Shown in pieces: positions 40,196 to 58,860 of a DNA stretch of 60,095 nucleotides. The notes beneath the pieces were generated by a model. The model did not search any database. It saw nothing but the letters and a program-made list of their open reading frames with translations, and was not told the origin of the DNA. The position numbers and the translations under genes are program-made. Position 1 is the first letter of the stretch. Every line of letters begins with the position of its first letter. The DNA comes from Oceanospirillaceae bacterium (GTDB lineage: Bacteria; Pseudomonadota; Gammaproteobacteria; Pseudomonadales; Balneatricaceae): contig JABSRB010000035.1 of the NCBI GenBank assembly GCA_013215375.1, positions 1-60,095 on the forward strand. The letters run 5' to 3'.

Positions 40196-40202
40196 AATAT
40201 CC

Positions 40203-40232
40203 CCAGCACTAACGATGTTAGTGCTGGTATTT
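40203..40232 (+). terminator. Hairpin terminator after rnr
   Basis: An 11-bp perfect stem, CCAGCACTAAC (40203-40213) with GTTAGTGCTGG (40217-40227) and a 3-nt loop, starts 7 bp past the stop. The following TATTTACC is a weak T-tract. Confidence 0.7.
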
Positions 40233-40343
40233 ACCCAAATATTACACTTCTTTTAAACCTCAGATTCTTAGTAGTTTCGACTGCGTCGAGTTCATTTCTT
40301 TTTGCGAAAAAAAGAAACGGAACCAAAGAAAATTTCGCCCGTA

Positions 40344-40478
40344 CGATTACCGAAAGCCTCCTCCGCTATTATCTAAATTGCCGGCCGCTCAGATAGGCCG
40401 TCCATGGCCTAGCTTCGCTCTCCACGACATCCTGTCGTTCCGCTTCGTCAATTTAGACAATAGCTCCGGCGGTAATCC
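40344..40478. repeat. Long imperfect palindrome downstream of rnr
   Basis: GCTATTATCTAAATTG (40365-40380) is mirrored at 15 of 16 positions by 40449-40464, and GATTACCG near 40344-40352 by CGGTAATC near 40470-40478, giving roughly 30-bp arms around a 68-bp centre. It lies in the gene-free 40228-40656 stretch. It could be a MITE-like insertion marking the boundary of the DGR island. No second copy was seen in the window. Confidence 0.5.
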
Positions 40479-40656
40479 AAGGGGATTTGTGGCTCCGAAG
40501 CCAGTTTTTTGTCTATAGTATTTCAGTTGTATAAAACCCATCTTGTAGAGCCCCACTATTTCTTTTACTTTTTTTTGAATTATAAAAATGTTGAGAACAT
40601 TTCTGTATGGAATACCTTTTAGTAAGCTTTAAATTATTGAATCGATTGTAGTAATC

Positions 40657-43600
40657 GTGCAGTATCTTAACAAATGGATTTTTGAGGTTAAAAATATAGT
40701 GCCTAGTATAAATGGAAAAAACGATTTTAAAGCCCCTATTGAATATGCAGCAGAAGCCGGTGTGATCTTCTTAACGATAGCATGCGGTTGTGTTTCTCCT
40801 GCATTAGCGTTATTTCCCGGTGTTTTGAAAGGTGTTAACTTATTAATTAGCCAAAAGAACCCTGAAAAACATGTAAAAAAGGTTCTTGCAAAGCATCTTA
40901 ATATTAATGGGGTGGTCGACAAAAAATCGTTTATTTTGGATGCTGTTTCTAATAATTTATTAAGCTACTTAACGGGTGAAGGTATTGACCTAGAGTCATT
41001 CACCTCTATAGATGATTCAGTAAAGGAGTTAACAGCTCAATATTTAAATGAAGACCTTAGTGGAGAATTACAACATTCAGTACGGGCTACTCTCAATGAA
41101 ATACTGGGATATATACCAACCACAGCATTAGATCTACTACCTATTTATGAGAGGTGTAATGATATTGAAAATACGATTAGAGAAATGGATGAATATAAAG
41201 AACTCTTAAAGTTATTACCTGACTTGCCTAATCTGTCTAAACAAATTGTTGAAATGCAATCTGAAATTAAAGAGTTGCAAAAGCCACACCGTGAAGCACA
41301 ACAGTTAGCATCTACTTTTATGGGTAAGTATTATAAAGCGTTAAGGCTTAGCGCGGTTACTAATGCCGCGTTAGATGAAAACTTGCATAAAAGCGCGCTC
41401 GATTTTATAGATCACTATGTCGATGCCTATTACGAGCAGGATACATTGAATGGTAATAAAAGAGGTAAAGAACCAATACTTTTAAGCGATTGGCTTATCG
41501 GCAAACCCTTGGTGTTTATTAAAGGCAATGCCGGTATGGGAAAAAGTACATTCTTAGAATATTGCTTTGCCAAAGCAATTATCGAGTTAAAAGCATCTAC
41601 GAAAGCTAATCAACCTATTTTGTTATTTATTCGAATTCAAGATTTTACTAAAATTTATGATGAAGGTGATTTAGACTTTTTTGCCCACATTAAGCGTTAT
41701 TTAGTACGCCTAAACTATGATAATGATGAAGGAAAAGGCGTTGATAAGTTTGTTGAATATATTGAATCAGCTGTCATCCATTTATATTTAGATGGTCTAG
41801 ATGAAACAGAAGACCTTTACAGAGAAAAATTGTTAGAATCTTTAAAAAAATGGTATTTCTCGAATCCAAATATTGAAAAAATAGTGATTAGCGGCAGGCC
41901 TAATGCTTTTAAAAACATTGATAATTTTTTATTAGAATGGCGAGATAAGCAGTATGTTGAGCAGGCATTCATTGCTCCTTTTATTCCAGATCAAATCAAT
42001 AGCTATATCGAAAAGCGCGTTAAACAAATTTCATTTGGTAAAGTTTCAGGTTGCAGCGATAAAGTCAGTGCTTTGAAAGCATTGCAAACAAAGTTGAGTG
42101 TAGAGCAAAGCGAAAACCTCTCAATCATGGCTAAGACACCATTACTTCTTAGTATGATGTGTGAATTAGTTGAATCTGGCGAAAGTCATTCAGGGTTACT
42201 TGATACTACGACAGCGTTGTATGAGCAAATGTTAAAGTTAATGCTGATTAATTGGAGTGTCAAAAAGGTAGAAAAACAGTTACAACGAAATAAACTAAGT
42301 GAAATATTAAAAACAAATTACCCTAAAGTATTCAATGAAATGTGCGCTCTTGCGCATACATCATTTATAGGCGGTGCTGGCTATCAATCGATACCGGCAG
42401 ATCTTGTTAAAAAGACTGAAAAAGAAATAGCCAATATTGTTAGTCTCATCTCTAAAATTCCAATCCAGCATGAACAATATTTGGGTGACCATTGCGGTAT
42501 TCTAGGAGAGAGGGAATGGGAGAATGGGAAACCTAAAACCTATGCTTTTCTTCATAATACATTTATGGAGTACTTGTTAGCATGCTATTGCTGTCGCGCG
42601 GATGATTTCCGAACTTTTTATGAGAGGCATCTTCAACAAGATAGCCCTAGTGTTAAAAAGGATGAAAAAATATATATTTTTATCATTGAACTTCTTATCC
42701 ATAAACCTAATCCGGACTGGTTTAAGCAGTTAGTGGGGATATATATTCAAAGAATCAATCGACTATTTATGGATTCGATTGAAAACGATTTCGAAAAAGA
42801 AATTGCATACACCGATACTGGGCTTTCTATTCGTGTTTATCTAGATCGGATTGAAAATAGTATTGATATAATACAAAACTCAAGTAGTCAAAAGCGGGAC
42901 TTTTTAGATGCTTTTTATTTCTCTGATTATTATCCAAACGCATCGGTATTAAAAGAATTTTTAAACTTTAAAAATCAATGTTTTGAAAGAGGAGAAAGTA
43001 ACTGCTCAGAAAAAGGCTTTAAGATTAGAGCGAAGATGCTTAGGTTGATCTATCGAATAGAATCTCTTTTTGAAGAAAAGTACCCGCTACCAACTTATAA
43101 CGACGATGACTGGGTGCAAGTTACACCGAAGCAGCTAGTGTTGTTAGGTAGTGAAAATCCAGATAACGGCGATGAAAAATGGAAACGCGATGAGGGTATA
43201 GAGCTTAAACCTTATAAAGTTGCCGTCAAACCAGTGTGTTACGAAGAGTTCAAAGCTTTCGCCGATGATGAAGAAGGTTATAATTTTTTATTGCAAATAA
43301 GTAATGATAATGAGCCTGATTGGTTTAAGCATAGTTTTAGTGAAAAAATCAAAAAGGCGTTTCGCGCTCAAGGCGAGTTTCAAGACGGTAACAAATTGTT
43401 CTATAAATATAATATATCCAAGCATCCCATCGTCGGTGTCAGTTTTTTTGATGCTATCGTTTATGCCGCTTGGTTAAGCCACAAACACAACAAAACCTAT
43501 AGCTTGCCGAGCGAAGCGCAATGGGAGTATATGGCAGCAGGCCCCGATAGGCATGAATACCCTTGGGGTAGCGATGATGATCCAATGATGCGAAATGGTA

Positions 43601-43929
43601 TGCGCTCGATAGGCTCTACTAGTGCTGTTGGGATGTATTCTAATGCAGCGCAAGCACATCTCATCTCAGGGCATTGGGCTGCACCGATTGCAGATGTATC
43701 TGGTAATGTGATGGAGTGGTGTAAAACTCAATATACAGATGATGGTTATACTAGTGAATACGAAATCGATATTGATTTACCAAATTCAGAAATGACAAAT
43801 GATACGGAAGCTGTGTTGCGCGGCGGCTGTTGGGGCAACTATACCATTTGGCTGCGCTGCTCTTCCCGTGGCGGGAGGCGGGCGGATAGGCGTGGCAGCA
43901 GCTGCGGATTTCGTTTAATCCAGGACTAA
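40657..43929 (+). CDS. DGR target protein: NACHT NTPase with C-terminal FGE-sulfatase/CLec variable domain
   Basis: 1090 aa from GTG 40657; GTG 40699 is an alternative with GAGG upstream. The N-terminal about 280 residues are helical with one hydrophobic stretch (36-60). A NACHT/STAND-type NTPase follows: Walker A GNAGMGKST (290-298), Walker B LYLDGLDETED (about 376-386) and VISGRPN (about 409), then a helical region to about 810. The C-terminus (about 815-1090) is a formylglycine-generating-enzyme-like C-type lectin fold: LPSEAQWEYMAAG, YPWG, VSGNVMEWC and RGGCW...GFRLIQD. The last 40 residues are encoded by the variable repeat. With no signal peptide, it is likely an intracellular NTP-driven sensor whose recognition face is diversified. 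Confidence 0.88.
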   Translation: MQYLNKWIFEVKNIVPSINGKNDFKAPIEYAAEAGVIFLTIACGCVSPALALFPGVLKGVNLLISQKNPEKHVKKVLAKHLNINGVVDKKSFILDAVSNNLLSYLTGEGIDLESFTSIDDSVKELTAQYLNEDLSGELQHSVRATLNEILGYIPTTALDLLPIYERCNDIENTIREMDEYKELLKLLPDLPNLSKQIVEMQSEIKELQKPHREAQQLASTFMGKYYKALRLSAVTNAALDENLHKSALDFIDHYVDAYYEQDTLNGNKRGKEPILLSDWLIGKPLVFIKGNAGMGKSTFLEYCFAKAIIELKASTKANQPILLFIRIQDFTKIYDEGDLDFFAHIKRYLVRLNYDNDEGKGVDKFVEYIESAVIHLYLDGLDETEDLYREKLLESLKKWYFSNPNIEKIVISGRPNAFKNIDNFLLEWRDKQYVEQAFIAPFIPDQINSYIEKRVKQISFGKVSGCSDKVSALKALQTKLSVEQSENLSIMAKTPLLLSMMCELVESGESHSGLLDTTTALYEQMLKLMLINWSVKKVEKQLQRNKLSEILKTNYPKVFNEMCALAHTSFIGGAGYQSIPADLVKKTEKEIANIVSLISKIPIQHEQYLGDHCGILGEREWENGKPKTYAFLHNTFMEYLLACYCCRADDFRTFYERHLQQDSPSVKKDEKIYIFIIELLIHKPNPDWFKQLVGIYIQRINRLFMDSIENDFEKEIAYTDTGLSIRVYLDRIENSIDIIQNSSSQKRDFLDAFYFSDYYPNASVLKEFLNFKNQCFERGESNCSEKGFKIRAKMLRLIYRIESLFEEKYPLPTYNDDDWVQVTPKQLVLLGSENPDNGDEKWKRDEGIELKPYKVAVKPVCYEEFKAFADDEEGYNFLLQISNDNEPDWFKHSFSEKIKKAFRAQGEFQDGNKLFYKYNISKHPIVGVSFFDAIVYAAWLSHKHNKTYSLPSEAQWEYMAAGPDRHEYPWGSDDDPMMRNGMRSIGSTSAVGMYSNAAQAHLISGHWAAPIADVSGNVMEWCKTQYTDDGYTSEYEIDIDLPNSEMTNDTEAVLRGGCWGNYTIWLRCSSRGGRRADRRGSSCGFRLIQD
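43804..43923 (+). repeat. DGR variable repeat (VR)
   Basis: 120 bp at the extreme 3' end of the NACHT-FGE gene, aligned without gaps to the template at 45344-45463. There are 20 mismatches, 18 at template adenines (14 A to G, 4 A to T). The other two are T/C differences at synonymous third positions. The last 21 bp differ only at the first base (a template adenine) and would serve as the homology where cDNA priming initiates. Similarity ends right after CAG, 3 codons before and including the stop. Diversified residues include GNYTIW, RGG, ADRRGSSC. Confidence 0.93.
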
Positions 43930-43976
43930 TTTACCTTTATCCTTTGATCTTTTACCCTTTGTTTTAAGGAGTTGAT

Positions 43977-44318
43977 ATGCACCAAGATAAACAGCCCAAA
44001 GCGGTATTAGATTGTCATAATGTGCTGTTGTATGTTATTCCGCAGCTTGATAAGTTTCCGCGAAATAGACGTTTTACTTTAGGCGATAAAATCGAGAAAA
44101 CCTTACTGACGATTTTAGAGGCACTGGTTGATGCGGCTTTTAGTGCACAAAAGCGGGCGAGTTTAACGCTGGCGAATCGCAAACTTGAAGTGCTGCGCCA
44201 CTTGTGGCGCTTGGCTTTTGAGCTAAAGGCCATTGCTATGAAGGCTTATGAACACGGGGCGCGTTTGTTTAATGAGCTGGGCGCGCAAGTCGGTGGCTGG
44301 CTAAAGTCGGCCAAATAA
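43977..44318 (+). CDS. avd: DGR accessory variability determinant (Avd)
   Basis: A 113-aa all-helical basic protein with AAGGAG 9 nt upstream of the ATG. Four amphipathic helices (about 10-30, 33-60, 62-90, 92-110), including FPRNRRFTLGDKIEKTLLTILEAL, match the four-helix-bundle Avd family, which forms a pentamer that binds the reverse transcriptase and template RNA in Bordetella-phage DGR. It starts 47 bp after the target gene and ends one base before the RT start codon, so the three genes form one operon. It appears intact. Confidence 0.88.
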   Translation: MHQDKQPKAVLDCHNVLLYVIPQLDKFPRNRRFTLGDKIEKTLLTILEALVDAAFSAQKRASLTLANRKLEVLRHLWRLAFELKAIAMKAYEHGARLFNELGAQVGGWLKSAK

Positions 44319-44319
44319 C

Positions 44320-45180
44320 ATGCAAAGATTAGTGGATGTTTGGCCGCAAATCAGTAGCTTTGCTAATTTATATCAGGCGTATCGTAAAGCGCGTAAGGGT
44401 AAGCGACAGCGCAAAGATGTGATTCAATTCGAGCTGAACTTAGAAGCTGAGCTATTTGCATTGGAGCGTGAGTTACGTAGCGGTAATTACCAGCCAAGGC
44501 CCTATCGGTTATTTGTGATTAAAGAGCGCAAGCGGCGTGAAATAGCGGCGGCTGCTTTTCGTGATAGGGTGGTGCAACATTCCATCATGTTGGTGCTGGA
44601 ACCCCACTTAGAGCAGTGTTTTATTACCCATAGTTATGCGTGCCGCAAAGGTAAAGGCGTGCATCGAGCGGTAGATCAGTATCAACGCTGGGCGCAGCAC
44701 TATAACTATTGTATGAAGCTGGATATTCAGCGCTATTTCCCACAAGTAGATCATCTATTATTGAAAAAGCAGCTGCGTCTTTACATCCAAGACGTGGATT
44801 TACTGTACTGCTTAGCCAACATTGTCGACTCCTACCCAGAAGATGATTTAAGCGAGCGACCTATCGGTATGCCAATTGGTAATTTAACCAGTCAGATATT
44901 TGCCAATTTATACCTCAATCAAATAGACCACTTTTTAGCAGCGCAATCTAATATTCGTTACTTACGCTACGTGGATTATTTTATTGTATTAGGGCGCGAT
45001 AAAGAGAGTTTATGGCAGCTCAAAGCGAGTTTGAGTGCGAATTTACAGTGCCTGCATTTGAATTTACATCCACGTAAAGCACAAGTGATGCGAGTGACGG
45101 AGCGCTTAGATATTCTTGGTTATAAAGTTTCTAGAGGTCGGCGCTGGCTGCGCAATGACAACGGTCATCGCTTTAATTGA
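44320..45180 (+). CDS. DGR reverse transcriptase, prematurely terminated and YxDD-mutant
   Basis: A 286-aa group-II-like retroelement RT of the DGR branch. Seen: basic N-terminus QAYRKARKGKRQRKDV, motif A YCMKLDIQRYFPQVD (first catalytic Asp present), DGR-specific IGNLTSQIFANLYLNQIDHF (instead of QGxxxSP), and LHPRKAQV...DILGYKVSRGRRW. Two defects: the catalytic motif reads YVDY (217-220; TAT at 44977-44979 where GAT is expected), and the frame stops at TGA 45178-45180, whereas homologous sequence continues in the same frame to 45336. Restoring the stop to CGA would give a normal-length RT of about 338 aa. Confidence 0.9.
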   Translation: MQRLVDVWPQISSFANLYQAYRKARKGKRQRKDVIQFELNLEAELFALERELRSGNYQPRPYRLFVIKERKRREIAAAAFRDRVVQHSIMLVLEPHLEQCFITHSYACRKGKGVHRAVDQYQRWAQHYNYCMKLDIQRYFPQVDHLLLKKQLRLYIQDVDLLYCLANIVDSYPEDDLSERPIGMPIGNLTSQIFANLYLNQIDHFLAAQSNIRYLRYVDYFIVLGRDKESLWQLKASLSANLQCLHLNLHPRKAQVMRVTERLDILGYKVSRGRRWLRNDNGHRFN

Positions 45181-45336
45181 AGGTTTAAGAAAATGGCGCA
45201 CAGCTATCGAAATGGGCGTTTGAGCATGGCAGAAATAAAGCCTAGAGTTGCCAGTTGGTTAGGCCATGCACAACATGCGCAAACGAAGGGCTTAGTGACA
45301 AAACTATTCAGGCAGGTTATCTTTAAAAAAGGGTGA
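45181..45336 (+). pseudogene. C-terminal remainder of the DGR reverse transcriptase
   Basis: In the same frame as the RT and directly after its TGA, 51 codons read RFKKMAHSYRNGRLSMAE, then IKPRVASWLGHAQHA and onwards, and end at TGA 45334-45336. SWLGHA.HA is the usual C-terminal block of DGR RTs. The context RFN-stop-RF suggests an Arg CGA to TGA transition at 45178. It would be translated only by read-through. Confidence 0.85.
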
Positions 45337-45343
45337 TACCTAA

Positions 45344-45463
45344 ACGAAAGCTGTGTTGCGCGGCGGTTGTTGGAACAACAATACCAATAGGCTGCGCTGT
45401 TCTTCCCGTAACAGGAGGCAAGCAAATAGGCGTAACAACAACAGCGGATTTCGTTTAATCCAG
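45344..45463 (+). repeat. DGR template repeat (TR)
   Basis: 120 bp, 7 bp past the RT remnant and not inside any convincing gene. It aligns gaplessly to VR 43804-43923. In the VR frame it is rich in AAC/AAT and AGG/CAA codons (W-N-N-N-T-N-R..., R-N-R-R-Q-A-N-R-R-N-N-N-S), the classic design in which adenine mutagenesis cannot create stop codons from AAY. It contains 35 adenines, 18 of which differ in VR. The order target-avd-RT-TR is one of the known DGR arrangements. Confidence 0.93.
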
Positions 45464-46138
45464 TGTGCCTTAATTACCAGAATGTTAACCCTTAAGGGGG
45501 CTAGCAGCGCGTGTTAGGTGTCCATGTGTATTACTCGCAGTTCAGCACGGATGCTGGGCTAAATAGTCTTGCCAAGGATGGCGGTTTTACTTAAAAAATG
45601 TCACTCAAGGCAGAATTTTTATCATCAACCGCTGTTGTTATCGTAATCAATCACCGTTGAACATAATTATAACGAAGGAGCCACTAAGCCCTTTGGCATA
45701 CCCCCCGAAGAGGAGGTTTAATTAAACTGTCCATGGAACCGCCAAATTGCTTACAATGTTGTAAGTACTTAGTTTTTGCTGGGTACAATATATTGACAGT
45801 GCATCCTGAACATATTTGTTCCTTGGTATCTATGCCACTGTGTTATACCGCACACCTTGTATATAAAATCTATATCGGGCGATGTCGCCCAGTACTTACA
45901 GTTGTGAGGTCTTCCCAGAGATGCTTTTCAAATAAAGTGGACGATAACAAAACGTTTGTTTTTCGAATTAAACGTTGTTCTTCATAGGCGGTGGATTATT
46001 GCTTAAAGGGCTAAAGTCCCAGTTAGCGTGCTCATTAAATTGGCTATAGTTTCTGTGTATAGAGGCTCTAGATTTATTCTACTATTCAACGGCGCTCAGT
46101 AACGGTAGATTGGGGAAAAACATCAATAACTAAAAGAT
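45464..46138. other. Gene-free region downstream of the DGR
   Basis: About 675 bp with no convincing gene. An 84-codon frame at 45733 is Cys-rich and without homology that I recognise. A GGGCGATGTCGCCC palindrome lies at about 45877-45890, and a CCCCCCGAAGAGGAGG segment at about 45703-45718 resembles an insertion-sequence end. Probably decayed mobile DNA bordering the island. Confidence 0.45.
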
Positions 46139-46303
46139 CCTAGATTCGACAGTTAGGCGCGAAAAAGCTGTGTAAGAAATTGGTGTGCATAGGAAATCAG
46201 AAAATTTAGTGGTCACCTTATTGGTTTTATGCATGGATGCATTTATTTAGCGAATGCATGGACGCATAAGAGCTTGATGAGAATATTTTCTGGATTTATA
46301 GGT
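46139..46303. repeat. Dispersed intergenic repeat, copy B
   Basis: Matches the reverse complement of the window's left edge (see 1-75): 46179-46225 at 45/47, 46276-46303 at about 24/28, with a 50-bp internal insertion 46226-46275. The insertion contains short direct repeats of GCATGGATGCAT/GCATGGACGCAT. A 78-codon frame overlapping it is probably spurious. Confidence 0.7.
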
Positions 46304-46382
46304 GCATCAAGAGCTTGTGCAGACTTTCGTGATTCGACTGCCGAATTTAGGATGATAAACCGCTCAATATTTGTGAGGTTCT

Positions 46383-47690
46383 ATGTTATACCCCAATACT
46401 TATTATGCAAGTACGGCAATTGCCAATTCACCCAGAGAAGCCCTGACAGGGGATGTGAAAGTTGATGTCTGTATTATCGGTGCGGGCATTGCCGGGTTAA
46501 GTTGTGCACTTGCATTGATAGAGCAGGGAAAAAGCGTGGCAATATTGGAACGTGAGGCTGTCGCTTGGGGTGCTTCTGGGCGAAATGGCGGTTTGGTGAT
46601 GGCGGGGTGGGCAAAGGGCATCGCTGAGATTGAAAAACAACTTGGTTTAGCTCAGGCGCAACAGCTGTTTTCGCTTTCGTCGCGCGGTGTTGAACTAATA
46701 CGTGACAATATAGATCAATATTCTTTGAGTCACTGTGATGTAAAAGGGGGGCAATTACAGGCGACGCGTTATCCTCAGCGGGAAAAATTACAGGCGCAAC
46801 AAAGGCAAATGGCCGATAAATATCAATACTCCCTAGATTTTTTAGAGACAGAGCAAGTGCGTGAAATTTGCCGTACAAAGCGCTACTTTGAAGGTCTTTA
46901 CTCCGCTAATGCCTTTCATTTTCATCCCCTAAATTACTGTCTGGGGCTAGCGAAAGTACTAGAGAAAAAAGGCGTGCTGATTTTTGAAAACAGTGGCGTC
47001 GATAAAGTGACCAGTGATGGTATCAATCATAGAGCGGTGACTACTCACGGGCATATAGACTGTGAACAAATAGTGTTTTGTGGCGGTGGTTATACCGGTG
47101 ATGAGGCGCCAAGTTTAAAACGTTCATTCTTACCAATTGCCACTTATATGTTACTGACAGAGCCCCTTGGGGATCTAGCCCAGCAGTTAATTACCCGGCC
47201 TATTAGCATCATGGATGATAGACGCGCCGCCGATTATTATCGTCTAGTAGAAGGTGATAGGCTGCTTTGGGGTTCTAGGATTACTACGCGTAATCAAACC
47301 GACGAGCAGTGTTTAGCCGCGATATTGCGCAAGGATTTGTGTTCGGTGTACCCAGAGCTTGCCAGTGTTAAGGTCGATAAATCTTGGTCTGGGTTAATGG
47401 CTTATGCGGGGCATAAAATGCCCATAGTCACACAGACACAACCCGGACAGTGGCTGTGTTCGGCTTTTGGTGGTCACGGCTTAAATACAGGCAGTGTCTG
47501 CGGTACTTTAGTCGCAGAGGCCATCTGTGGAATAAATCGAGATTACCTGCAATTAGCCCCCTTCGGCTGTCAGTGGAATGGTGGTGCACTGGGGCCTATA
47601 GTGGCAAACTTAACTTATCAGTATTTGAGGTTTAGAGACAAAGTACAAGAGTCAGGGGTTAAGAGTAGAGTGATAAAATTTCGTTTTTGA
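46383..47690 (+). CDS. FAD-dependent oxidoreductase (DAO/PuuB-like)
   Basis: A 435-aa flavoprotein. Seen: an ADP-binding GAGIAGLSCALALIEQGKSVAILE motif (about 34-57), SGRNGGLVMAGWAKG, and a C-terminal GHGLNTGSVCGTLVAEAI FAD loop. The layout YPNTYYASTA at the N-terminus resembles gamma-glutamylputrescine oxidase-type amine oxidases of the DAO family. The substrate could be an amine, amino acid or sarcosine-like compound. It is the first gene on the right of the DGR region, about 240 bp ahead of the LacI regulator and in the same direction. Confidence 0.83.
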   Translation: MLYPNTYYASTAIANSPREALTGDVKVDVCIIGAGIAGLSCALALIEQGKSVAILEREAVAWGASGRNGGLVMAGWAKGIAEIEKQLGLAQAQQLFSLSSRGVELIRDNIDQYSLSHCDVKGGQLQATRYPQREKLQAQQRQMADKYQYSLDFLETEQVREICRTKRYFEGLYSANAFHFHPLNYCLGLAKVLEKKGVLIFENSGVDKVTSDGINHRAVTTHGHIDCEQIVFCGGGYTGDEAPSLKRSFLPIATYMLLTEPLGDLAQQLITRPISIMDDRRAADYYRLVEGDRLLWGSRITTRNQTDEQCLAAILRKDLCSVYPELASVKVDKSWSGLMAYAGHKMPIVTQTQPGQWLCSAFGGHGLNTGSVCGTLVAEAICGINRDYLQLAPFGCQWNGGALGPIVANLTYQYLRFRDKVQESGVKSRVIKFRF

Positions 47691-47929
47691 TAGCTGTCAC
47701 TGTCTTGAGAACAGGTCAGTGAGTGGCAAGTTTGTAATGATAAAAAACTATATCCTTTTGTTGCTAATATATATTTAAGGCTGATTATTAATACAGAAAG
47801 TGAATGACCTTTTGGTGTTTTTTAATATGGGTTCATGAATAACTTAAAAATATTGTTATACTGATTTATAGATGAAAGTGAAATTTGTCACTTTACAGTC
47901 TATTTAATGAATCATACTTTTGAGAGCTC

Positions 47930-48949
47930 ATGAATAAAGCAAATGCTACTTCAGCCGATGTCGCACAATTAGCGGGTGTTTCTCAATCGACTGTTTCACG
48001 TAGTTATGATCCTAATAGCCGCATATCGAAAAGCACCCGTCAAAAAGTTTTCGCTGCCGCTGAAAAATTGCATTATCAAGTAAATAAAGCTGCACAGACT
48101 ATGATCAACAAACGCAGTGATCTCGTTGGTTTGGTGACTGCTGGCCTTGGAGATCCTTTTCGCTCTGAATTTTTAAACTCTTTAGTGCTTGCAGTACAAG
48201 AAAAAGGTCTTAGACCTATGATCATTGATGTGACAGATGAGCAGATGCTAGATCAACAATTACAAACACTTCTTCAATATCAGCTAAGTGGCGTTATCAT
48301 TACTTCGGGAACCCCTAGTGAGGCAGTTGCCAATGCCTTTATTGCGCGGGGTACCCCTGTTGTATTAGTCAATAGAGCGGATCATTCTAGTGAGGCAGAT
48401 ATTATCAATTTTGATAATGAAGCCGCTGGTAGGCTCGCCGCACAAGAATTCGTTGCTGCTGGTAAACACAAGGTGATGGTTGTGCGCTCTAAAGTGTCTA
48501 GCTACAGTAGCGTTATGCGTAGTAACGGTTTTAAAGGTGCATTGCTTGAGCCTATGCGGGATTCTTCAATTCAGGTCGAAGAGCGATTTTGCGAGCTGGG
48601 TGATTATGACTCCGGGATTATTTTTGGTAAAGAATTAATCGCCAGTGGTGGTATGCCTGACGGCATTTTCTTTTGCATGGACTATATTGCCTGTGGATTT
48701 ATTGATGCTATAAAACATTCAGGTGTTTATTCTATCCCTCGAGATGTCGCTATCATTGGCTGCGATGATATTACCATTGCAAGATATCAAGCATACGCTC
48801 TGACAACCATACGCCAATCAGCTAAAGAGATGGCAAGCTCGGCAGTATCTGCGCTACAAGCTCGGCTTGATCATCCTAGCGCGCCTCCAATCCAGCAGAA
48901 AATTGGCGCTGCTGTGATATTTCGTCATTCTTTTGTACCCAATCATTAA
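47930..48949 (+). CDS. LacI-family regulator of the ABC transporter cluster
   Basis: A 339-aa protein. Seen: LacI-type helix-turn-helix TSADVAQLAGVSQSTVSRSYDPNSRISKSTRQKV (residues 7-41), hinge helix region AAQTMINKRSDLVGLVT, and a PBP1-like effector domain ending IGAAVIFRHSF. It precedes the transporter operon by about 250 bp, and a palindrome fitting a LacI operator lies over that operon's predicted start site. An extended -10 (TGTTATACT near 47854) could drive the regulator. Confidence 0.87.
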   Translation: MNKANATSADVAQLAGVSQSTVSRSYDPNSRISKSTRQKVFAAAEKLHYQVNKAAQTMINKRSDLVGLVTAGLGDPFRSEFLNSLVLAVQEKGLRPMIIDVTDEQMLDQQLQTLLQYQLSGVIITSGTPSEAVANAFIARGTPVVLVNRADHSSEADIINFDNEAAGRLAAQEFVAAGKHKVMVVRSKVSSYSSVMRSNGFKGALLEPMRDSSIQVEERFCELGDYDSGIIFGKELIASGGMPDGIFFCMDYIACGFIDAIKHSGVYSIPRDVAIIGCDDITIARYQAYALTTIRQSAKEMASSAVSALQARLDHPSAPPIQQKIGAAVIFRHSFVPNH

Positions 48950-49119
48950 TTAATAATCCCTAGATTAAACCATTATTATGAAACTCCTGATTGAATGGGA
49001 TAAGCTTAATCATATTGTTTTTAAAATATTATGGGGTAGCTGGGCTTGCATTGAGTCTTTAATTAGTTAAATCCAATCAATAAGTTGATCGATATTTAAG
49101 CAGTTATTTGTTTTAAGCT

Positions 49120-49147
49120 TTGACAAAGGAGTAAGCAGGCGTATACT
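49120..49147 (+). promoter_or_regulatory. Promoter of the FbpA/AfuA-type operon
   Basis: Consensus TTGACA (49120-49125), 16-bp spacer, TATACT (49142-49147). The predicted start near 49154 leaves a 50-nt leader to the ATG at 49206. Confidence 0.8.
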
Positions 49148-49154
49148 TTTATTT

Positions 49155-49174
49155 CTGTTCATACGTATGCACAG
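49155..49174. promoter_or_regulatory. LacI-type operator at the transcription start
   Basis: A 20-bp palindrome matching its own reverse complement at 18 of 20 positions, with perfect centre CATACGTATG and a central CG, typical of LacI-family operators. It begins right after the -10 element, so bound repressor would block initiation. The adjacent LacI gene is the obvious binder. Confidence 0.7.
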
Positions 49175-49205
49175 TTTAATAATTAGACAAGGAGTCAGTA
49201 TAAAA

Positions 49206-50234
49206 ATGAAAAACTCTCCGTATTTATTGAGTGTTACCTTAGCCACTCTTGCCGTTTTATCAGCCCCTGTAATGGCAAAAGGTAAATTAAATGTTCTTTG
49301 CTCCACTGATACAGATTGGTGTAGTTTGATGGAAACAACCTTTGAAAAAGAAACGGGTATTAAAGTTTCGCTGATCAGAAAAAGCTCGGGGGAATCTTAT
49401 GCTCAATTACGTGCAGAAGCTAAAAATCCTAAAATCGATATTTGGTGGGGCGGAACGGGTGATCCCCATTTGCAGGCGGCGGCTGAGGAATTAACGCAAG
49501 TATATAAGCCTAAAGCATTATCAGAGTTACGCGATTGGGCTCAAAATCAAGCGAAAGTATCTGGCTATCGAACAGTGGGGATTTATGCAGGAGCTTTAGG
49601 CTTTGGCTACAATGAAAAATTATTGAGCGCCAAGGGACTAGCCGCTCCTAAGTGTTGGAAAGATTTGGCAGACCCGAAATATAAAGGCGAAGTCCAAGTA
49701 GCTAACCCTAATTCATCTGGCACCTCTTATACGGCACTGGCCACTTTTGTACAGATGATGGGTGAAGATCAAGCATTTGATTTCCTCTCGAAACTTCATA
49801 AAAATATTAACCAATACACCAAATCTGGATCTGCGCCGATAAAAGCGGCTGCTAATGGTGAGACCGCAATTGGCATCACTTTTATTCACGATATCGTCAA
49901 GCAAGTGAAAAAGGGATATCCCGTTAAGGCTGTAGCGCCGTGTGAAGGCACTGGCTATGAAGTAGGTTCGATGAGTATTGTCAAAGGTGCTCGCCACTTG
50001 AAAGAGGCAAAAATGTGGGCTGACTTTGCGTTGCGCCCAGATATTCAAACGATGGCTGCACAAGCTAAGGCCTTTCAAGTACCCTCCAACAAATCGGCGA
50101 CCACACCTGAAGGCGCGCCTGATTTCTCTAAAATAAAATTGATTGATTATGATTTTGCGAAATATGGATCAGCGGCCACACGTAAGCATTTATTACAACG
50201 TTGGGATGCTGACATTAAATCGCTACCGCGCTAA
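49206..50234 (+). CDS. Periplasmic binding protein, FbpA/AfuA-type
   Basis: 342 aa from ATG 49206 (AAGGAG upstream); a longer start would lie inside the operator. Signal peptide about 1-25 (MKNSPYLLSVTLATLAVL...VMAKG). The mature protein has LNVLCSTDTDWCSLMETTFEKETGIKV, RKSSGESYAQLRAEAKNPKIDIWWGGTGDPH and QVANPNSSGTSYTALA, as in the Fe(III)/2-aminoethylphosphonate/sugar-phosphate class of type II binding proteins. Classical ferric-binding Tyr-Tyr ligands are not evident, and the S/T-rich SSGTSY loop suits an anion such as a phosphorylated substrate (inference). Confidence 0.84.
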   Translation: MKNSPYLLSVTLATLAVLSAPVMAKGKLNVLCSTDTDWCSLMETTFEKETGIKVSLIRKSSGESYAQLRAEAKNPKIDIWWGGTGDPHLQAAAEELTQVYKPKALSELRDWAQNQAKVSGYRTVGIYAGALGFGYNEKLLSAKGLAAPKCWKDLADPKYKGEVQVANPNSSGTSYTALATFVQMMGEDQAFDFLSKLHKNINQYTKSGSAPIKAAANGETAIGITFIHDIVKQVKKGYPVKAVAPCEGTGYEVGSMSIVKGARHLKEAKMWADFALRPDIQTMAAQAKAFQVPSNKSATTPEGAPDFSKIKLIDYDFAKYGSAATRKHLLQRWDADIKSLPR

Positions 50235-50389
50235 GAGTTTATCTGAGAATAGCGATCGTAGCGAGGGCTTGGCTGTTTCAGCTAATGTATCGGTCAGGCC
50301 CCTGAATCTCATCCAATCTATTGATGTCTATGTGGGCTTTGCTGAGGTTATGACTCGGCAAAGGCAACTTTCTATTTGGAGTACTATTT

Positions 50390-52624
50390 TTGAGACATTC
50401 CTTTATCCCGTGGCTATTGCTAGGTTGGGTCGGCTTCTTATTGCTTCCTTGGTATTTACTAGAAGATGGATTCTGGTCTTTTATTTGGGTAACAGATGGC
50501 TATGCCAGTGACATGGATTACGCGCCTGCTATCTTGCAAGGATTAGTGGGGGAGCGCACTTGGTTATTGCCTTTGATTTTTCCGTTACTCATTCCGTTAC
50601 GTCTGCTCTCTCTGACTAAAAGCGATCCCCGATACAGCCGCTATCTAATTATAGCTGGGGCCTGTGGGCTTTCTTATTTGTTAGTACAAGGTTTTGCCAT
50701 TGGTGTATCGGGTTGGCAATTCATGGGCCTGACCAGTCTATTTGGGGAACTTGAATTACAGCAGTATGGTATGGGATACGGCGCAGCTTTGTGTGGTTTA
50801 TCTTTTTTGGTGTTATTAACGACGGGATTAGCAGCCTCTGGTTTTCTCAAAGGCGATGTATTTGTCACTAGCAGTATCGGGTTAGTCATAGCGCTGGTAG
50901 GGCTTTTTGTTTTTTTCCCCGTCAGCCAAATCTTACTCAGTGCTTTTATCAGCCCAGATGACTTGTTTACACCCATGCTGTTTGTCGAAAAATTATCGAG
51001 TAACAATATTTGGTCGCTGTCTTGTTTGAACAGTGGCTATGCTTGCGGTATTGCCTGGAACTCTTTAGCACTCGCTATCAGTACGGCTGTGCTCACGACA
51101 TTATTAGGATTGGCTTTTGCGCTGGTGATCACTCGTACTGGCTTTCGCTGGAAAAAATCGCTGCGCTTGTTGACCGTATTACCTATTATAACGCCACCCT
51201 TTGTGATTGGTTTAGCGCTCATATTATTATTTGGCCGCTCGGGAGTAATAACTACTTTTGTTGCTGATCTTCTAAATATTGAACCTGGGCGTTGGCTGTA
51301 TGGCTTTCCCGGTGTTTTGTTCGCGCAAGTATTATCCTTTACCCCCATCTCTTTCCTAGTGCTTATTGGCGTGGTCGAAGGTGTTAGCCCATCAATGGAG
51401 GAGGCGTCTCAGACTTTAAGGGCAAATCGTTGGAAAACATTCATCAATATATCACTGCCGCTAATGCGCCCGGGTTTAGCCAATGCCTTCTTATTATCGT
51501 TTATTGAAAGTCTTGCTGATTTTGGTAATCCGATGGTGTTAGGCGGAGATTTTGAAGTGCTATCGACGGAGATTTTCTTTGCCATAGTGGGAGCACAGAA
51601 TGACCAAAGTTATGCGGCGGTGTTGGCCATTTTGTTACTTGCTTTTACGCTCAGTGCCTTCTTTATTCAGCGGCGTTGGCTAGGTAAAAAATCTTATATT
51701 ACAGTGACGGGTAAGGCCGATTCTGGGACCTATATGGGGCTGAACCCTGGGATGCGTAGACTTTGTTATAGCACTGTTATCCCTTGGGCTGCATTAACCG
51801 TAGTGATTTATGGCATGATCATGTTTGGCGGTTTTGTGAAAAGCTGGGGCTATGATAATAGCTTTACGCTACAACATTATAGCGCTGCATTTGCCATGAG
51901 TTGGGGAGATGTAGGGATTATTTGGGAAGGGGCTGCTTGGGACTCCTTATGGACGACTTTGACTATCTCTGCTATAGCAGCACCGTTTACCGCTCTTGTC
52001 GGTTTGCTAACGGCTTACCTGCTGGTAAGACAGCAATTTAAATACAAAGAAGTCTTTGAGTTCGGCACGATGTTGAGCTTTGCAATTCCCGGTACGGTAA
52101 TCGGTATCAGTTATATATTAGCTTTTAATGTGCCACCCTTTGAATTGACTGGCACAGGTATTATTTTGATTATTTGTTTTGTTTTTCGCAATATGCCGGT
52201 GGGTGTTCGTGGGGGCATTGCGGCAATGAGCCAATTAGATAAAAGCCTTGATGAAGCCTCTTTAACATTAGGTGCTAATAGTTTAACGACCTTTCGCCGC
52301 GTTATATTACCTCTGTTAAGACCTGCGATAATAGCAGCCTTGGTCTACAGTTTTGTGCGGGCTATTACCTCTGTCAGCGCGGTTATCTTCCTGGTTAGCG
52401 CAGATCACAATATGGCTACCTCATACATTATTGGCTTAGTCGAAAATGGTGAGTTTGGCATTGCTATTGCCTACTGTAGCGTACTGATTTTGGTCATGCT
52501 CACTGCCATCATTTGCATTAATCTGCTAGTTGGCCAACGCCGTTTACGCCGCACTCCCTCAAACACGCCGTCACCGAGAAAAACTTCCTTTTCCTCCTCT
52601 ACTTTAAAGGAGAACCAAGCATGA
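50390..52624 (+). CDS. ABC permease, fused two-domain (FbpB/AfuB-type)
   Basis: 744 aa from TTG 50390 (GGAG 8 nt upstream). About 12-14 membrane helices in two homologous halves. Each half ends in an EAA-type loop for the ATPase: MEEASQTLRANRWKTFINISLPLMRPGL in the first half and LDEASLTLGANSLTTFRRVILPLLRPAI in the second. Such fusions are typical of FbpB ferric and AfuB sugar-phosphate permeases. It forms the channel with the overlapping ATPase gene (ATGA at 52621-52624). Confidence 0.88.
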   Translation: MRHSFIPWLLLGWVGFLLLPWYLLEDGFWSFIWVTDGYASDMDYAPAILQGLVGERTWLLPLIFPLLIPLRLLSLTKSDPRYSRYLIIAGACGLSYLLVQGFAIGVSGWQFMGLTSLFGELELQQYGMGYGAALCGLSFLVLLTTGLAASGFLKGDVFVTSSIGLVIALVGLFVFFPVSQILLSAFISPDDLFTPMLFVEKLSSNNIWSLSCLNSGYACGIAWNSLALAISTAVLTTLLGLAFALVITRTGFRWKKSLRLLTVLPIITPPFVIGLALILLFGRSGVITTFVADLLNIEPGRWLYGFPGVLFAQVLSFTPISFLVLIGVVEGVSPSMEEASQTLRANRWKTFINISLPLMRPGLANAFLLSFIESLADFGNPMVLGGDFEVLSTEIFFAIVGAQNDQSYAAVLAILLLAFTLSAFFIQRRWLGKKSYITVTGKADSGTYMGLNPGMRRLCYSTVIPWAALTVVIYGMIMFGGFVKSWGYDNSFTLQHYSAAFAMSWGDVGIIWEGAAWDSLWTTLTISAIAAPFTALVGLLTAYLLVRQQFKYKEVFEFGTMLSFAIPGTVIGISYILAFNVPPFELTGTGIILIICFVFRNMPVGVRGGIAAMSQLDKSLDEASLTLGANSLTTFRRVILPLLRPAIIAALVYSFVRAITSVSAVIFLVSADHNMATSYIIGLVENGEFGIAIAYCSVLILVMLTAIICINLLVGQRRLRRTPSNTPSPRKTSFSSSTLKENQA

Positions 52625-53694
52625 GTCTTAAACATAGAGCGGGCTCTGTCTGTTTTGAAAATGTCACTAAAATATTTGGTGATGTTAAAGCTATCGACAA
52701 CATTTCATTCACTATTGAACCTGGTCACTTAGTGACTTTATTAGGCCCGAGTGGGTGCGGAAAAACCACCACCTTAAGAATGATAGCAGGGCTAGAACAT
52801 CCAGCATCTGGTCGAATTATGATTGGTGGAAAGGACGTCACATCTTTACCGGCAACGGATAGAGACGTGAGTATGGTTTTTCAATCTTATGCCTTATTTC
52901 CGCATATGAGTGTTGCTGAGAACGTTGCTTACGGGTTGAAGGCCAGCGGTATGAAAAAAAATGAGGCGATGGAAAAAAGCGCAGATGGTCTGGATTTGGT
53001 TGGCCTTGCAGGATACGGGCATCGGTTGCCTAGTGAGCTATCAGGTGGTCAGCAGCAGCGCGTTGCTGTCGCCCGTGCTCTGGTACTTGAGCCAGAAGTC
53101 TTGTTACTTGATGAGCCGCTGTCTAATCTAGATGCTAAATTGCGCCGTCGTGTACGAGAGGAAATCCGCGAACTGCAACAAAAAATTGGTCTAACCGCTG
53201 TGTATGTCACACATGATCAAGAAGAAGCGCTGGCGGTGTCCGATCGCATTATTGTGATGAATCGCGCTGTTATTTCCCAAGAGGGGAGTCCTAGAGAGCT
53301 GTATGAGCAACCGGCTTCTACTTTTATAGCTGACTTTATCGGCGATGCTAATCTTGTTGATGCCGATATTATCAGTACGAGTGAAAACCGAGCTGAAGTT
53401 GCTGTCAGTACTTTACGCTACTCTTTGGCATTGCGTGATTTTAAAATAGGGCGAGTAAAGCTCGCTGTTCATCCCAGTGCGATACGTTTATCTCTAATTT
53501 GTGAAGGTTCACAGGGGCTTAAGGGCAATGTGCGACGTGCCACCTACTTGGGTAGTCAGATGCAATATGAAGTGGACTGCGAATTAGGCTGTCTTTTTGT
53601 GGTGGACTTTAGAGTAGATCAAGCAATTCCTATTGGCTCTGATGTATCAATATCCTTTTCCGATCGCGGTTTAGCACTCGTCGATACTGACTAA
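52621..53694 (+). CDS. ABC ATP-binding protein (FbpC/AfuC/PotA-type)
   Basis: A 357-aa protein: ABC domain with Walker A GPSGCGKTT (about 40-48), Q-loop VFQSYALFPHMSVAENVAYGL, signature LSGGQQQRVAVARAL, Walker B VLLLDEPLSNLDAKLR and switch H in VTHDQEEA, then a C-terminal TOBE-like regulatory domain (about 240-355). The start overlaps the permease stop by 4 bp, so production is coupled. It couples ATP hydrolysis to import by the fused permease. Confidence 0.9.
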   Translation: MSLKHRAGSVCFENVTKIFGDVKAIDNISFTIEPGHLVTLLGPSGCGKTTTLRMIAGLEHPASGRIMIGGKDVTSLPATDRDVSMVFQSYALFPHMSVAENVAYGLKASGMKKNEAMEKSADGLDLVGLAGYGHRLPSELSGGQQQRVAVARALVLEPEVLLLDEPLSNLDAKLRRRVREEIRELQQKIGLTAVYVTHDQEEALAVSDRIIVMNRAVISQEGSPRELYEQPASTFIADFIGDANLVDADIISTSENRAEVAVSTLRYSLALRDFKIGRVKLAVHPSAIRLSLICEGSQGLKGNVRRATYLGSQMQYEVDCELGCLFVVDFRVDQAIPIGSDVSISFSDRGLALVDTD

Positions 53695-53712
53695 AACGAA
53701 AGAGTAGTTATT

Positions 53713-54519
53713 ATGTATTTAGATCCAAAATTAGTAGATGGCAATATCTTGGCGCGCTTTGAACAAGCTAACAGCATTATTAAGCTTGCAGGTGAACAGG
53801 CACTCGAATACTTTAAAAACCGTGACCACTTAATCGTAGAAACCAAAATGGATCCACAAGATGTGGTGAGCATTGCCGACAGAAATGTTGAAACGACTAT
53901 TGTTGAAGGACTACAAGCGCAATTTTCAGACGATGGGTTTTTAGGGGAAGAACAAGGTGGCATTCAAGGCTCAAATAAATTTTTGTGGGTTATAGATCCA
54001 ATTGACGGCACTGCCTGTTTCCTTAACGGTATGCATTCTTGGTGTATCTCTATTGCCCTCATGATTGGTGATGAAATTGCGTTTGGTTTAATACTCGATC
54101 CTAATAGCAATGAGCTTTTTAGTGCCATTGCCGGCCGAGGCTGCTTTGTTAATAACAAACAAGTGTACACTTTATCTGCTAAAACAGTGGCCGATGGAGT
54201 GATGGGAGTAGGCACTTCACACCGAGTTGAGACAGCAATGTGTACAGGTTTCCTCGAGCAATTATTGGATCAGGGCGGGATGTTTATACGTAATGGCTCA
54301 GGTGCATTAATGCTTGCTTACGTTGCATCAGGGCGTTTAATTGGTTATTACGAACCCCATATCAATTCATGGGATTGTTTGGCAGGCTTAATTATGGTCA
54401 ATGAAGCGGGTGGTTGGACAGCGCCTTTTTTACAGGGCGAAGGTCTCTTAAAAGGCAACCCGATACTTGTCTCCTCTATGGGACTTAAAGAGAGTGTGAT
54501 AGCAATGTCTGGGTTGTGA
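53713..54519 (+). CDS. Inositol monophosphatase family phosphatase
   Basis: A 268-aa Mg2+-dependent, lithium-sensitive-type phosphatase. Seen: metal-site motifs GEEQGG (about 76-81), WVIDPIDGTACFLNG (about 93-107) and INSWDCLAGLIMVNEAGG (about 217-234). Family members remove phosphate from inositol phosphate, histidinol phosphate or PAP. It is 18 bp downstream of the transporter ATPase, so it is part of the same operon. A phosphatase coupled to an AfuABC-like importer suggests that the imported phosphorylated compound is dephosphorylated in the cell. Last gene of the cluster. Confidence 0.87.
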   Translation: MYLDPKLVDGNILARFEQANSIIKLAGEQALEYFKNRDHLIVETKMDPQDVVSIADRNVETTIVEGLQAQFSDDGFLGEEQGGIQGSNKFLWVIDPIDGTACFLNGMHSWCISIALMIGDEIAFGLILDPNSNELFSAIAGRGCFVNNKQVYTLSAKTVADGVMGVGTSHRVETAMCTGFLEQLLDQGGMFIRNGSGALMLAYVASGRLIGYYEPHINSWDCLAGLIMVNEAGGWTAPFLQGEGLLKGNPILVSSMGLKESVIAMSGL

Positions 54520-55126
54520 GCATCCTGGGCGAGCGTTGTTTGTGTAATATGTTTAATTTATTCATGCGCTTAAGGCTTGTTTTAGCGGTTAACTGCTGTT
54601 TCTAGGTTTAAGTGTCTGGTTACGAAAGAGCTGCGGTCTAAAACAAAGGCAAGCAATGGTTGGGGGGAGCGTTATCAGCGAGCGGCCGCCAATATAGTTG
54701 AGTTTCGGATTAACAGGAATGAACTCAACTTCGAAATACCTCTTTATTCTTTTGATTTTAAAAATTACAGCCTATTGATATTACCAGCATGGAAGCCCCT
54801 ATGATTTGTCGGTAACAAAACCTTGTCTTGTTAGTGTTATATTCTGTGCTTGCTGGCAATAAAACTATCGGTAAATATATATACCAATATATCTCACTAG
54901 ACATAGGCTACTAATACAACATCAAACCAAGTGACTATTTGCCACAATAGCTGCCAGTCATTACAATAAACGCAGCTCAACCACGGCAATCAATCGTATA
55001 CAACTTGCTAATGAACTCATCGCTAAAGACGTTAGTATGGCGAAGCAGAACATAAAGCAGGTAAACTTGAGTCCTCCGATTTTCTGAAACCACCCAAACA
55101 ATAAATACTTTGGATTTGATATTTCA
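54520..55126. other. Gene-poor spacer before creB
   Basis: 607 bp. No intact gene is seen. Positions 54935-55087 form an open stretch of 50 codons (...TAINRIQLANELIAKDVSMA...) without a start codon that reads like a protein fragment but matches nothing I recognise. The creB promoter must lie near the right end. Confidence 0.4.
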
Positions 55127-55822
55127 ATGGATGAAACAATATTACTAATTGAAGATGAAGCAGCCATTGCAGACAATGTGGTGTATGCGCTGCGATCTGA
55201 TCATTTTCGGGTGCAATGGTTTAGTTTAGGTGAGGAGGGGCTAAATTATTTACTTAATAATAGCGTCGATTTAGTGATACTGGATGTCGGTCTCCCCGAT
55301 ATCAATGGCTTCGAACTCTGTAAAAAAATCCGTCAATACAGCGATGTCCCCTTAATATTTTTAACCGCGCGAGACAGCGAGATAGACAAAGTGGTTGGGT
55401 TGGAACTAGGCGCTGATGATTACGTGGTTAAACCTTTTAGCCCCCGAGAATTAGTAGCGCGTGTTAAAGCAATATTGCGGCGGCAAAATACCAATGTTCA
55501 TTTAGTCGTTAATAAGACTGCTAGTGTCAAGAATAGTGTGTTTAGTGTCGATGTTGATAAGAGAGTCATCACTTTTTGTGATCAAGTCATGCCGCTGAGT
55601 GCTTATCAATTTGGTGTGCTGCAACTACTGCTCAGTCAGCCTGAGAGGGTTTTTAGTCGCGAACAGTTGATGGATGCTATCTGGTCGCCTCAGCAAGTGA
55701 GTTTTGATCGCTCAGTTGATACGACCGTCAAACAACTACGCGCTAAAATGAAATCGATAGACGCTTGTCAGCAACCGCTGGTTACCCATCGCGGCGTTGG
55801 ATATAGCATAAAAAATATATAA
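55127..55822 (+). CDS. creB: Response regulator CreB
   Basis: A 231-aa OmpR-class regulator: REC domain (acceptor Asp54 in LVILDVGLPDINGFELC; Lys about 104 in DDYVVKPFSPREL) and a C-terminal winged helix (LSAYQFGVLQLLLSQPERVFSREQLMD ... RSVDTTVKQLRAKM). CreB signatures are VVYAL after the acidic pocket and DVGLPDxxGFELC. It is followed by creC after 17 bp and creD further on, which supports the assignment. In Pseudomonas and Aeromonas CreBC controls creD and beta-lactam or envelope-stress responses. Confidence 0.88.
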   Translation: MDETILLIEDEAAIADNVVYALRSDHFRVQWFSLGEEGLNYLLNNSVDLVILDVGLPDINGFELCKKIRQYSDVPLIFLTARDSEIDKVVGLELGADDYVVKPFSPRELVARVKAILRRQNTNVHLVVNKTASVKNSVFSVDVDKRVITFCDQVMPLSAYQFGVLQLLLSQPERVFSREQLMDAIWSPQQVSFDRSVDTTVKQLRAKMKSIDACQQPLVTHRGVGYSIKNI

Positions 55823-55839
55823 GCCTATGGGTGCGATAA

Positions 55840-57261: not shown

Positions 57262-57368
57262 ACTTTTTGCTCACATAACTAACACATAACACTCATATTA
57301 GTACCATTGAAGCGCTATAGACTAACGGCTACTTTAATGAATAAGTGCAAAATCTAATAGGGGTTGCT

Positions 57369-58784: not shown

Positions 58785-58802
58785 CTGGATTTTAAAATCA
58801 AT

Positions 58803-58840
58803 AAAAGGCTGATTCATCGGACACTAGAATCAGCCTTTTA
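58803..58840. terminator. Bidirectional terminator between creD and galU
   Basis: AAAAGGCTGATT (58803-58814) pairs with AATCAGCCTTTT (58828-58839) with a 13-nt loop and T-tracts on both strands. It serves both convergent genes. Confidence 0.9.
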
Positions 58841-58860
58841 ATAGCTATACGATGGTAATA

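Follow-up and report, generated by a model that had tools for sequence, protein, structure and literature searches.

A diversity-generating retroelement downstream of rnr

The window analyzed here is a stretch of 60,095 nucleotides (positions 1 to 60,095 of contig JABSRB010000035.1) from the draft assembly GCA_013215375.1 of an Oceanospirillaceae bacterium, which comprises 4,999,463 bases in 96 contigs with a completeness of 95.26%. It harbors a diversity-generating retroelement (DGR), the parts of which follow one another on the + strand in the order target gene with variable repeat (VR), avd, reverse transcriptase (RT) gene, template repeat (TR) and RNA element. The target gene (40657..43929) encodes a protein of 1090 amino acids with an N-terminus that received no family call, a NACHT-like NTPase and a C-terminus of the FGE-sulfatase/CLec type, and the VR (43804..43923) lies at its 3' end. 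After the VR, a pyrimidine-rich tract of CTTT-like quasi-repeats (43930..43965) is found on the same strand. The avd gene (43977..44318; 113 amino acids, apparently intact) has AAGGAG upstream of it and is separated by one base from the ATG at 44320 that opens the DGR-type RT open reading frame (ORF; 44320..45180; 286 amino acids). This ORF is followed in frame by a C-terminal remnant (45181..45336), by the TR (45344..45463), which is non-coding and lies within no listed + strand ORF, and by the RNA element (45464..45530). A first-pass annotation of the same DNA had described the target gene ending in a variable repeat, the Avd gene, an RT with the motif IGNLTSQ, the AAGGAG before avd, the one-base gap between avd and RT and the non-coding TR, all of which were recovered at these positions.

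Comparison of TR and VR revealed that 18 of 35 template adenines are changed (14 to G, 4 to T) as opposed to 2 of the 85 other bases (Fisher p = 5.6e-10). Adenine changes fall in 14 codons of the VR and alter the residue in 13 of them, while the two non-A differences are T/C exchanges at the third positions of 2 codons, both synonymous. The VR has undergone adenine-mutagenic hypermutation in the past. That TR and VR are an ordinary duplication with an unrelated RT next to it, the alternative against which the first-pass annotation had set its DGR call, is so improbable as to be negligible, as the adenine-specific substitutions already refute it; Avd, the placement of the RT and like TR/VR pairs beside related RTs speak against it as well. 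Such pairs were detected in 11 of the first 12 relatives, all 12 of which carry Avd. Among the next 8 relatives, repeat search yielded TR/VR pairs in 6, and the RNA model described below added a seventh, L088 (L numbers denote our reference loci).

The family assignments agree with this. Avd matched NF033474 with 89.7 bits (cut-off 80) and PF22296 with 62.5 bits (cut-off 40), and the RT carries the DGR-type SQ motif IGNLTSQ. In a tree of 30 RTs, which had three group II RTs as its only outgroup, the 27 SQ-type rows including the window split from the group II rows with a support of 100/100, and the window falls inside a group of seven rows together with cellular DGRs from the same class (support 99/97). 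The best solved relative of the RT is 8ub7_A (E 5.5e-39), which we take to be the BPP-1 RT, the record itself reading 'Reverse transcriptase'; the next is a group II-type RT (6e-16). PADLOC returned a generic RT as the top model for the RT, then DRT-type models. A group II intron or retron RT was ruled out by the family matches, the SQ motif and the tree placement. With adenine bias between TR and VR, Avd, an SQ-type RT and a target gene ending in the VR, the locus is a genuine DGR, as had been annotated.

Lesions of the reverse transcriptase and the state of the element

The first-pass annotation had further called the DGR complete, which does not hold for the RT: two lesions had escaped it. 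Motif C (44968..44979, + strand; residues 217-220) reads YVDY instead of YxDD, the last codon being 44977-44979, and the frame is closed by a TGA at 45178-45180, 51 codons early. All 26 SQ-type relatives examined carry YxDD. A leave-one-out comparison covered the first 12 relatives and the window. Of 28 columns invariant in all the others, the window breaks one, that of the catalytic aspartate; individual relatives show 0 to 5 such departures, none of them in this column. In the phmmer alignment to 8ub7 the altered motif C residue stands opposite YMDD. According to a DGR survey, both catalytic aspartates are 100% conserved (PMC3521204).

The 51 codons in the RT frame past the TGA (45181-45333), which end at a stop codon of their own (45334-45336), can be aligned to the C-terminal ends of RTs in relatives, at identities between 25/51 (L060) and 7/41 (L066). 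All 12 aligned relatives extend 45 to 78 residues past the point at which the window RT stops, and in a wider set 25 of 26 relatives have 51 or more residues past the end of the BLAST match, the exception, L096, being itself cut short. The latter (L096, 1761-2711) is another shortened DGR RT and lies next to avd on a Photobacterium damselae plasmid. The stop codon of the remnant is located 7 nt upstream of the TR. In 6 of 7 relatives measured, 1-23 nt separate the RT end from the TR, and in L089 the two overlap by the bounds of the repeat finder; relative to the TR, the remnant ends where the RTs of relatives end. Judged from its sequence, the RT is broken, with both the catalytic aspartate and the C-terminus lost.

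Two independent disabling errors within one gene of 0.86 kb, including one that strikes the catalytic aspartate, would be needed if the DGR were a working one and both lesions were errors of sequencing or assembly. The draft state of the assembly with its 96 contigs, the caution in PMC3521204 that what looks like a point lesion may be an error of sequencing, and the intact appearance of everything except the RT would all suit such errors, but neighboring genes (rnr, secD and secF) read open and CreB, CreC and CreD score above curated cut-offs. We regard this explanation as unlikely.

An RT that lacks the catalytic aspartate and the C-terminus makes diversification in this genome today unlikely. 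Slightly less probable still than sequencing error is that the element continues to home through a DGR RT provided in trans, or that the truncated RT is still partly active or serves a structural purpose alongside Avd. The conservation of TR, Avd, RNA element and target and the incompleteness of the assembly speak for this, yet the assembly holds a single DGR-type RT, its only other RT match being a group II maturase. Furthermore, the BPP-1 RT with YMDD>SMAA is used as an inactive control in homing assays (PMC12875486, PMC3240598), although the change in the window affects only one of these residues. A second DGR in the assembly was rejected, as no other DGR RT is present and the TR as a probe gave, beyond TR and VR, matches of 21 bases or fewer only. 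With no second DGR RT in what is assembled, homing should have stopped and the VR should be fixed.

Taken together, we assign a probability of roughly 0.86 to the reading that this is a recently silenced chromosomal cellular DGR, the RT of which is lost and the sensor of which is frozen. Before that, by analogy with BPP-1, the TR and the structured element behind it would have been part of an RNA to which RT and Avd bound. The cDNA made by the RT would have received random bases opposite template adenines, in line with the adenine bias seen in the sequence, and would then have replaced the VR, so varying the tip of the CLec-type domain to which a NACHT-like switch is joined. Later on, the RT lost its catalytic aspartate and its C-terminus, as the sequence shows, and with homing stopped the present VR would be one fixed variant. 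Silence today and the function of the sensor are what we infer, as is the sequence in which the two lesions arose.

Several points weigh against this reading. Outside the two lesions the window RT is well conserved, and its end branch in the tree (1.12) is nearly equalled by that of L060 (1.08), the RT of which retains YxDD and the tail, so that general decay of the RT is not shown. Loss of activity through the motif C change is predicted from sequence. With an assembly completeness of 95%, an RT that acts in trans could have been missed. In addition, the excess of non-A differences in the window is not significant, with 2 of 67 core positions compared with 4 of 835 in relatives (p = 0.067; 19 TR/VR pairs from 17 relative loci, core positions being trimmed by an ad hoc rule, and a repeat-finder pair of L088 being left out since it is not a TR/VR pair). 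This excess agrees with drift after freezing without proving it.

Inactivated cellular DGRs have already been described (PMC3521204, PMC10907252), and the window locus joins them. DGR RTs killed by nonsense, frameshift or insertion are reported in PMC3521204, and in the inactivated DGRs of DiGReF from that survey the RT is broken and TR/VR are intact as in the window, nonsense truncation being among the classes. In contrast to that set, the window has also lost the catalytic aspartate and shows two synonymous non-A differences, where only A-mutations are reported there. In Thiohalocapsa PB-PSB1, RTs of DGRs have been lost to transposons or MITE-like arrays (PMC10907252). The window differs in having one target, one cassette and an RT free of mobile-element insertions, its lesions being a changed catalytic residue and a premature stop. 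Loss of the enzyme can leave the visible hallmarks in place (SQ motif, Avd, TR, VR and tight spacing), and motif-based surveys may therefore over-count live DGRs. A frozen sensor beside its template would be a natural experiment on what selection retains after hypermutation ends.

RNA element behind the TR and sequences behind the VR

The RNA element of the window consists of a CRGAR motif, a stem of 9-10 bp with a 4-nt loop, and GCGYG, an arrangement that follows the TR in ten DGRs (window, L059, L060, L086, L087, L089, L091-L093 and L021). In the hairpin alignment A3, 91.7% of 96 cells pair and both partners are changed in 9 of 10 pairs. Covariation scored 0.976, compared with 0.269 for the shuffled control and at most 0.267 for the slid control, over which the structure is favored by having been read off the same ten sequences. 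An RNA model built without the window located the window element with 45.1 bits (E 7e-9). Applied to 17 further left-out sources, the same model found L094, L088 and L090 (E 8e-9 to 2e-6), with L016 being marginal (E 0.2); since nothing was found in the remaining 13, the element marks one DGR branch and not all. In L088 and L094 the sequence just 5' of the match is a TR that differs from VRs at adenines only, or nearly so. A TR-like sequence also lies just 5' of the match in L090 and L016, where the stretch examined is without a VR. The model of all ten sequences gave one match in the window's own genome, the element at 45464-45530, and none in nine congener loci.

Rfam yielded no gathering-level match in four relative loci and, on the window, nothing for the TR-flanking element even at E <= 1; searches of an open-licence library, mostly at the level of listings, brought up no description of such an RNA element in cellular DGRs. 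In BPP-1, the spacer behind the TR folds, recruits RT-Avd and primes the cDNA (PMC12875486), and the window element is therefore probably, by analogy, the counterpart of this spacer RNA. That it is undamaged argues for a recent loss of the RT. A broader view is put forward tentatively and seems to us rather doubtful: throughout a whole branch of cellular DGRs, the hairpin could be the RNA for recognition by RT-Avd and for priming, an uncatalogued RNA family sufficiently conserved to locate TRs without an RT or a VR. In the window it would have outlived the RT, the cell having locked in one sensor allele and kept Avd and the TR-RNA machinery. More than any other part of the locus, the RNA element deserves further study. 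Covarying, and tested on loci left out of its model, it offers a handle for finding TRs in cellular DGRs and for RT-Avd recognition of RNA outside BPP-1.

Behind the VR, a target site of the BPP-1 type would consist of a GC-rich hairpin or cruciform of 7-10 bp with a 4-nt loop at a short distance. The 120 nt behind the window VR contain no perfect stem of at least 6 bp and thus no such structure. As 6 of 19 VRs of relatives likewise lack a stem of this length behind the VR, the missing hairpin was not counted as a lesion. For 20 VRs, that of the window among them, repeated 4-mers occur more often in the sequence behind the VR than behind either 203 other ORF ends from these loci (p = 9e-7) or 18 TRs (p = 3e-5); since the loci share ancestry, both p values are optimistic. 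The CTTT-like tract sits between the VR and the next gene or hairpin in related loci. Some distant DGRs have other repeat units behind the VR (TCTG, AATC).

With the DGR of BPP-1 (PMC3240598, PMC12875486) the window shares RT, Avd, the TR/VR logic and a structured RNA 3' of the TR. It differs in that the TR lies behind the RT instead of before it, in the absence of a GC-rich hairpin behind the VR, in its target, a putative NTPase sensor instead of a tail-tip protein, and in its RT, which is predicted to be non-functional.

Target protein, distribution and chromosomal setting

The C-terminus of the target matched FGE-sulfatase with 101 bits (residues 831-1088), the VR lying at the end of this domain, and the domain match suggests a CLec-type fold for the tip. 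Residues 285-454 matched NACHT with 24.8 bits, just under the Pfam cut-off of 26.7, and the NTPase motifs GNAGMGKST at 290 (P-loop-like) and LYLDGLDE at 376 (acidic) are present. The GTG start is uncertain, as a ribosome site is not clearly seen; the ORFs of the target and of Avd are both still open. PADLOC gave no family for the target or for Avd. The first 2.6 kb of the target gene have a GC content of 31-38% and its last 0.6 kb of 43-48%, compared with 47% in avd and 44% in the RT gene. This split fits a sensor tip that travels as part of the cassette and an NTPase half that came from elsewhere, and domain shuffling of this sort in DGR targets is proposed in PMC10907252. At E <= 1e-15, the NTPase half (amino acids 1-831) matched 1 of 369 genomes in the class sample, the window's own; against plasmids, four weak records were found, all cyanobacterial, and no match of the target protein to viral contigs was confirmed. 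The targets of the related DGRs L062 and L064 carry NACHT and FGE-sulfatase. Near the latter (L064, 6328-9612) a single protein combines a sub-cut-off Trypsin_2 match, NACHT and FGE-sulfatase, an effector-switch-sensor layout. From its domains and relatives, the window target is probably an anti-phage or other conflict sensor. DGR 3 of Thiohalocapsa PB-PSB1 (RT clade 5, PMC10907252) resembles the window in its central NTPase, of the NACHT type there and NACHT-like in the window, with a C-terminal CLec carrying the VR, in its Avd-type cassette, in its chromosomal location and in a gammaproteobacterium-like class; this likeness is drawn from domains and layout.

No RT match was obtained in 6 congeners (E <= 1e-40), and at the same threshold 2 of 116 genomes of the family matched, one being the window's own. 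Including the own genome, matches were present in 5 of 390 genomes of the order sample (E <= 1e-50) and in 6 of 369 of the class sample (E <= 1e-52), the relatives in these two samples being 39-51% identical. The nearest relatives seen (51-53% identical) belong to one other family, where a match was present in 9 of its 42 genomes (E <= 1e-58). A DNA search of plasmids gave no match.

The interval between rnr and galU (40196..58860, no strand assigned) differs from that of congeners. In the window the gap measures 18.7 kb (about 40.2-58.8 kb). Of 5 informative congeners, 3 have rnr next to galU, at a distance of about 70-100 bp, and 2 have about 4-5 kb of other genes in between; a sixth congener was left out of the comparison as its rnr contig is only 3 kb long. 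Across the genus, this spot is variable. An island of 40.2-46.3 kb downstream of rnr had been suggested by the first-pass annotation: this block does differ from the congeners, but the true extent is larger and covers the whole rnr-galU interval. Apart from the DGR, the interval contains creBCD and genes for an FAD oxidoreductase, a LacI-family regulator, a phosphonate-type ABC transporter and a phosphatase, these last four being named from sub-cut-off matches.

A prophage setting was rejected, which bears out the chromosomal setting annotated before: the neighbors are cellular genes, and no integrase or phage structural family was detected among 10 downstream proteins (NCBIfam) and 6 flanking proteins (PHROGs), with small ORFs and most upstream genes lying outside the scans. 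The sole tRNA of the window is located at 31.2 kb. Upstream of the target gene, positions 40273-40485 form a dispersed repeat with 44 matches in the assembly, itself included, and the minus strand of this repeat matches Rfam RF01731 (TwoAYGGAY) above gathering with 51.1 bits.

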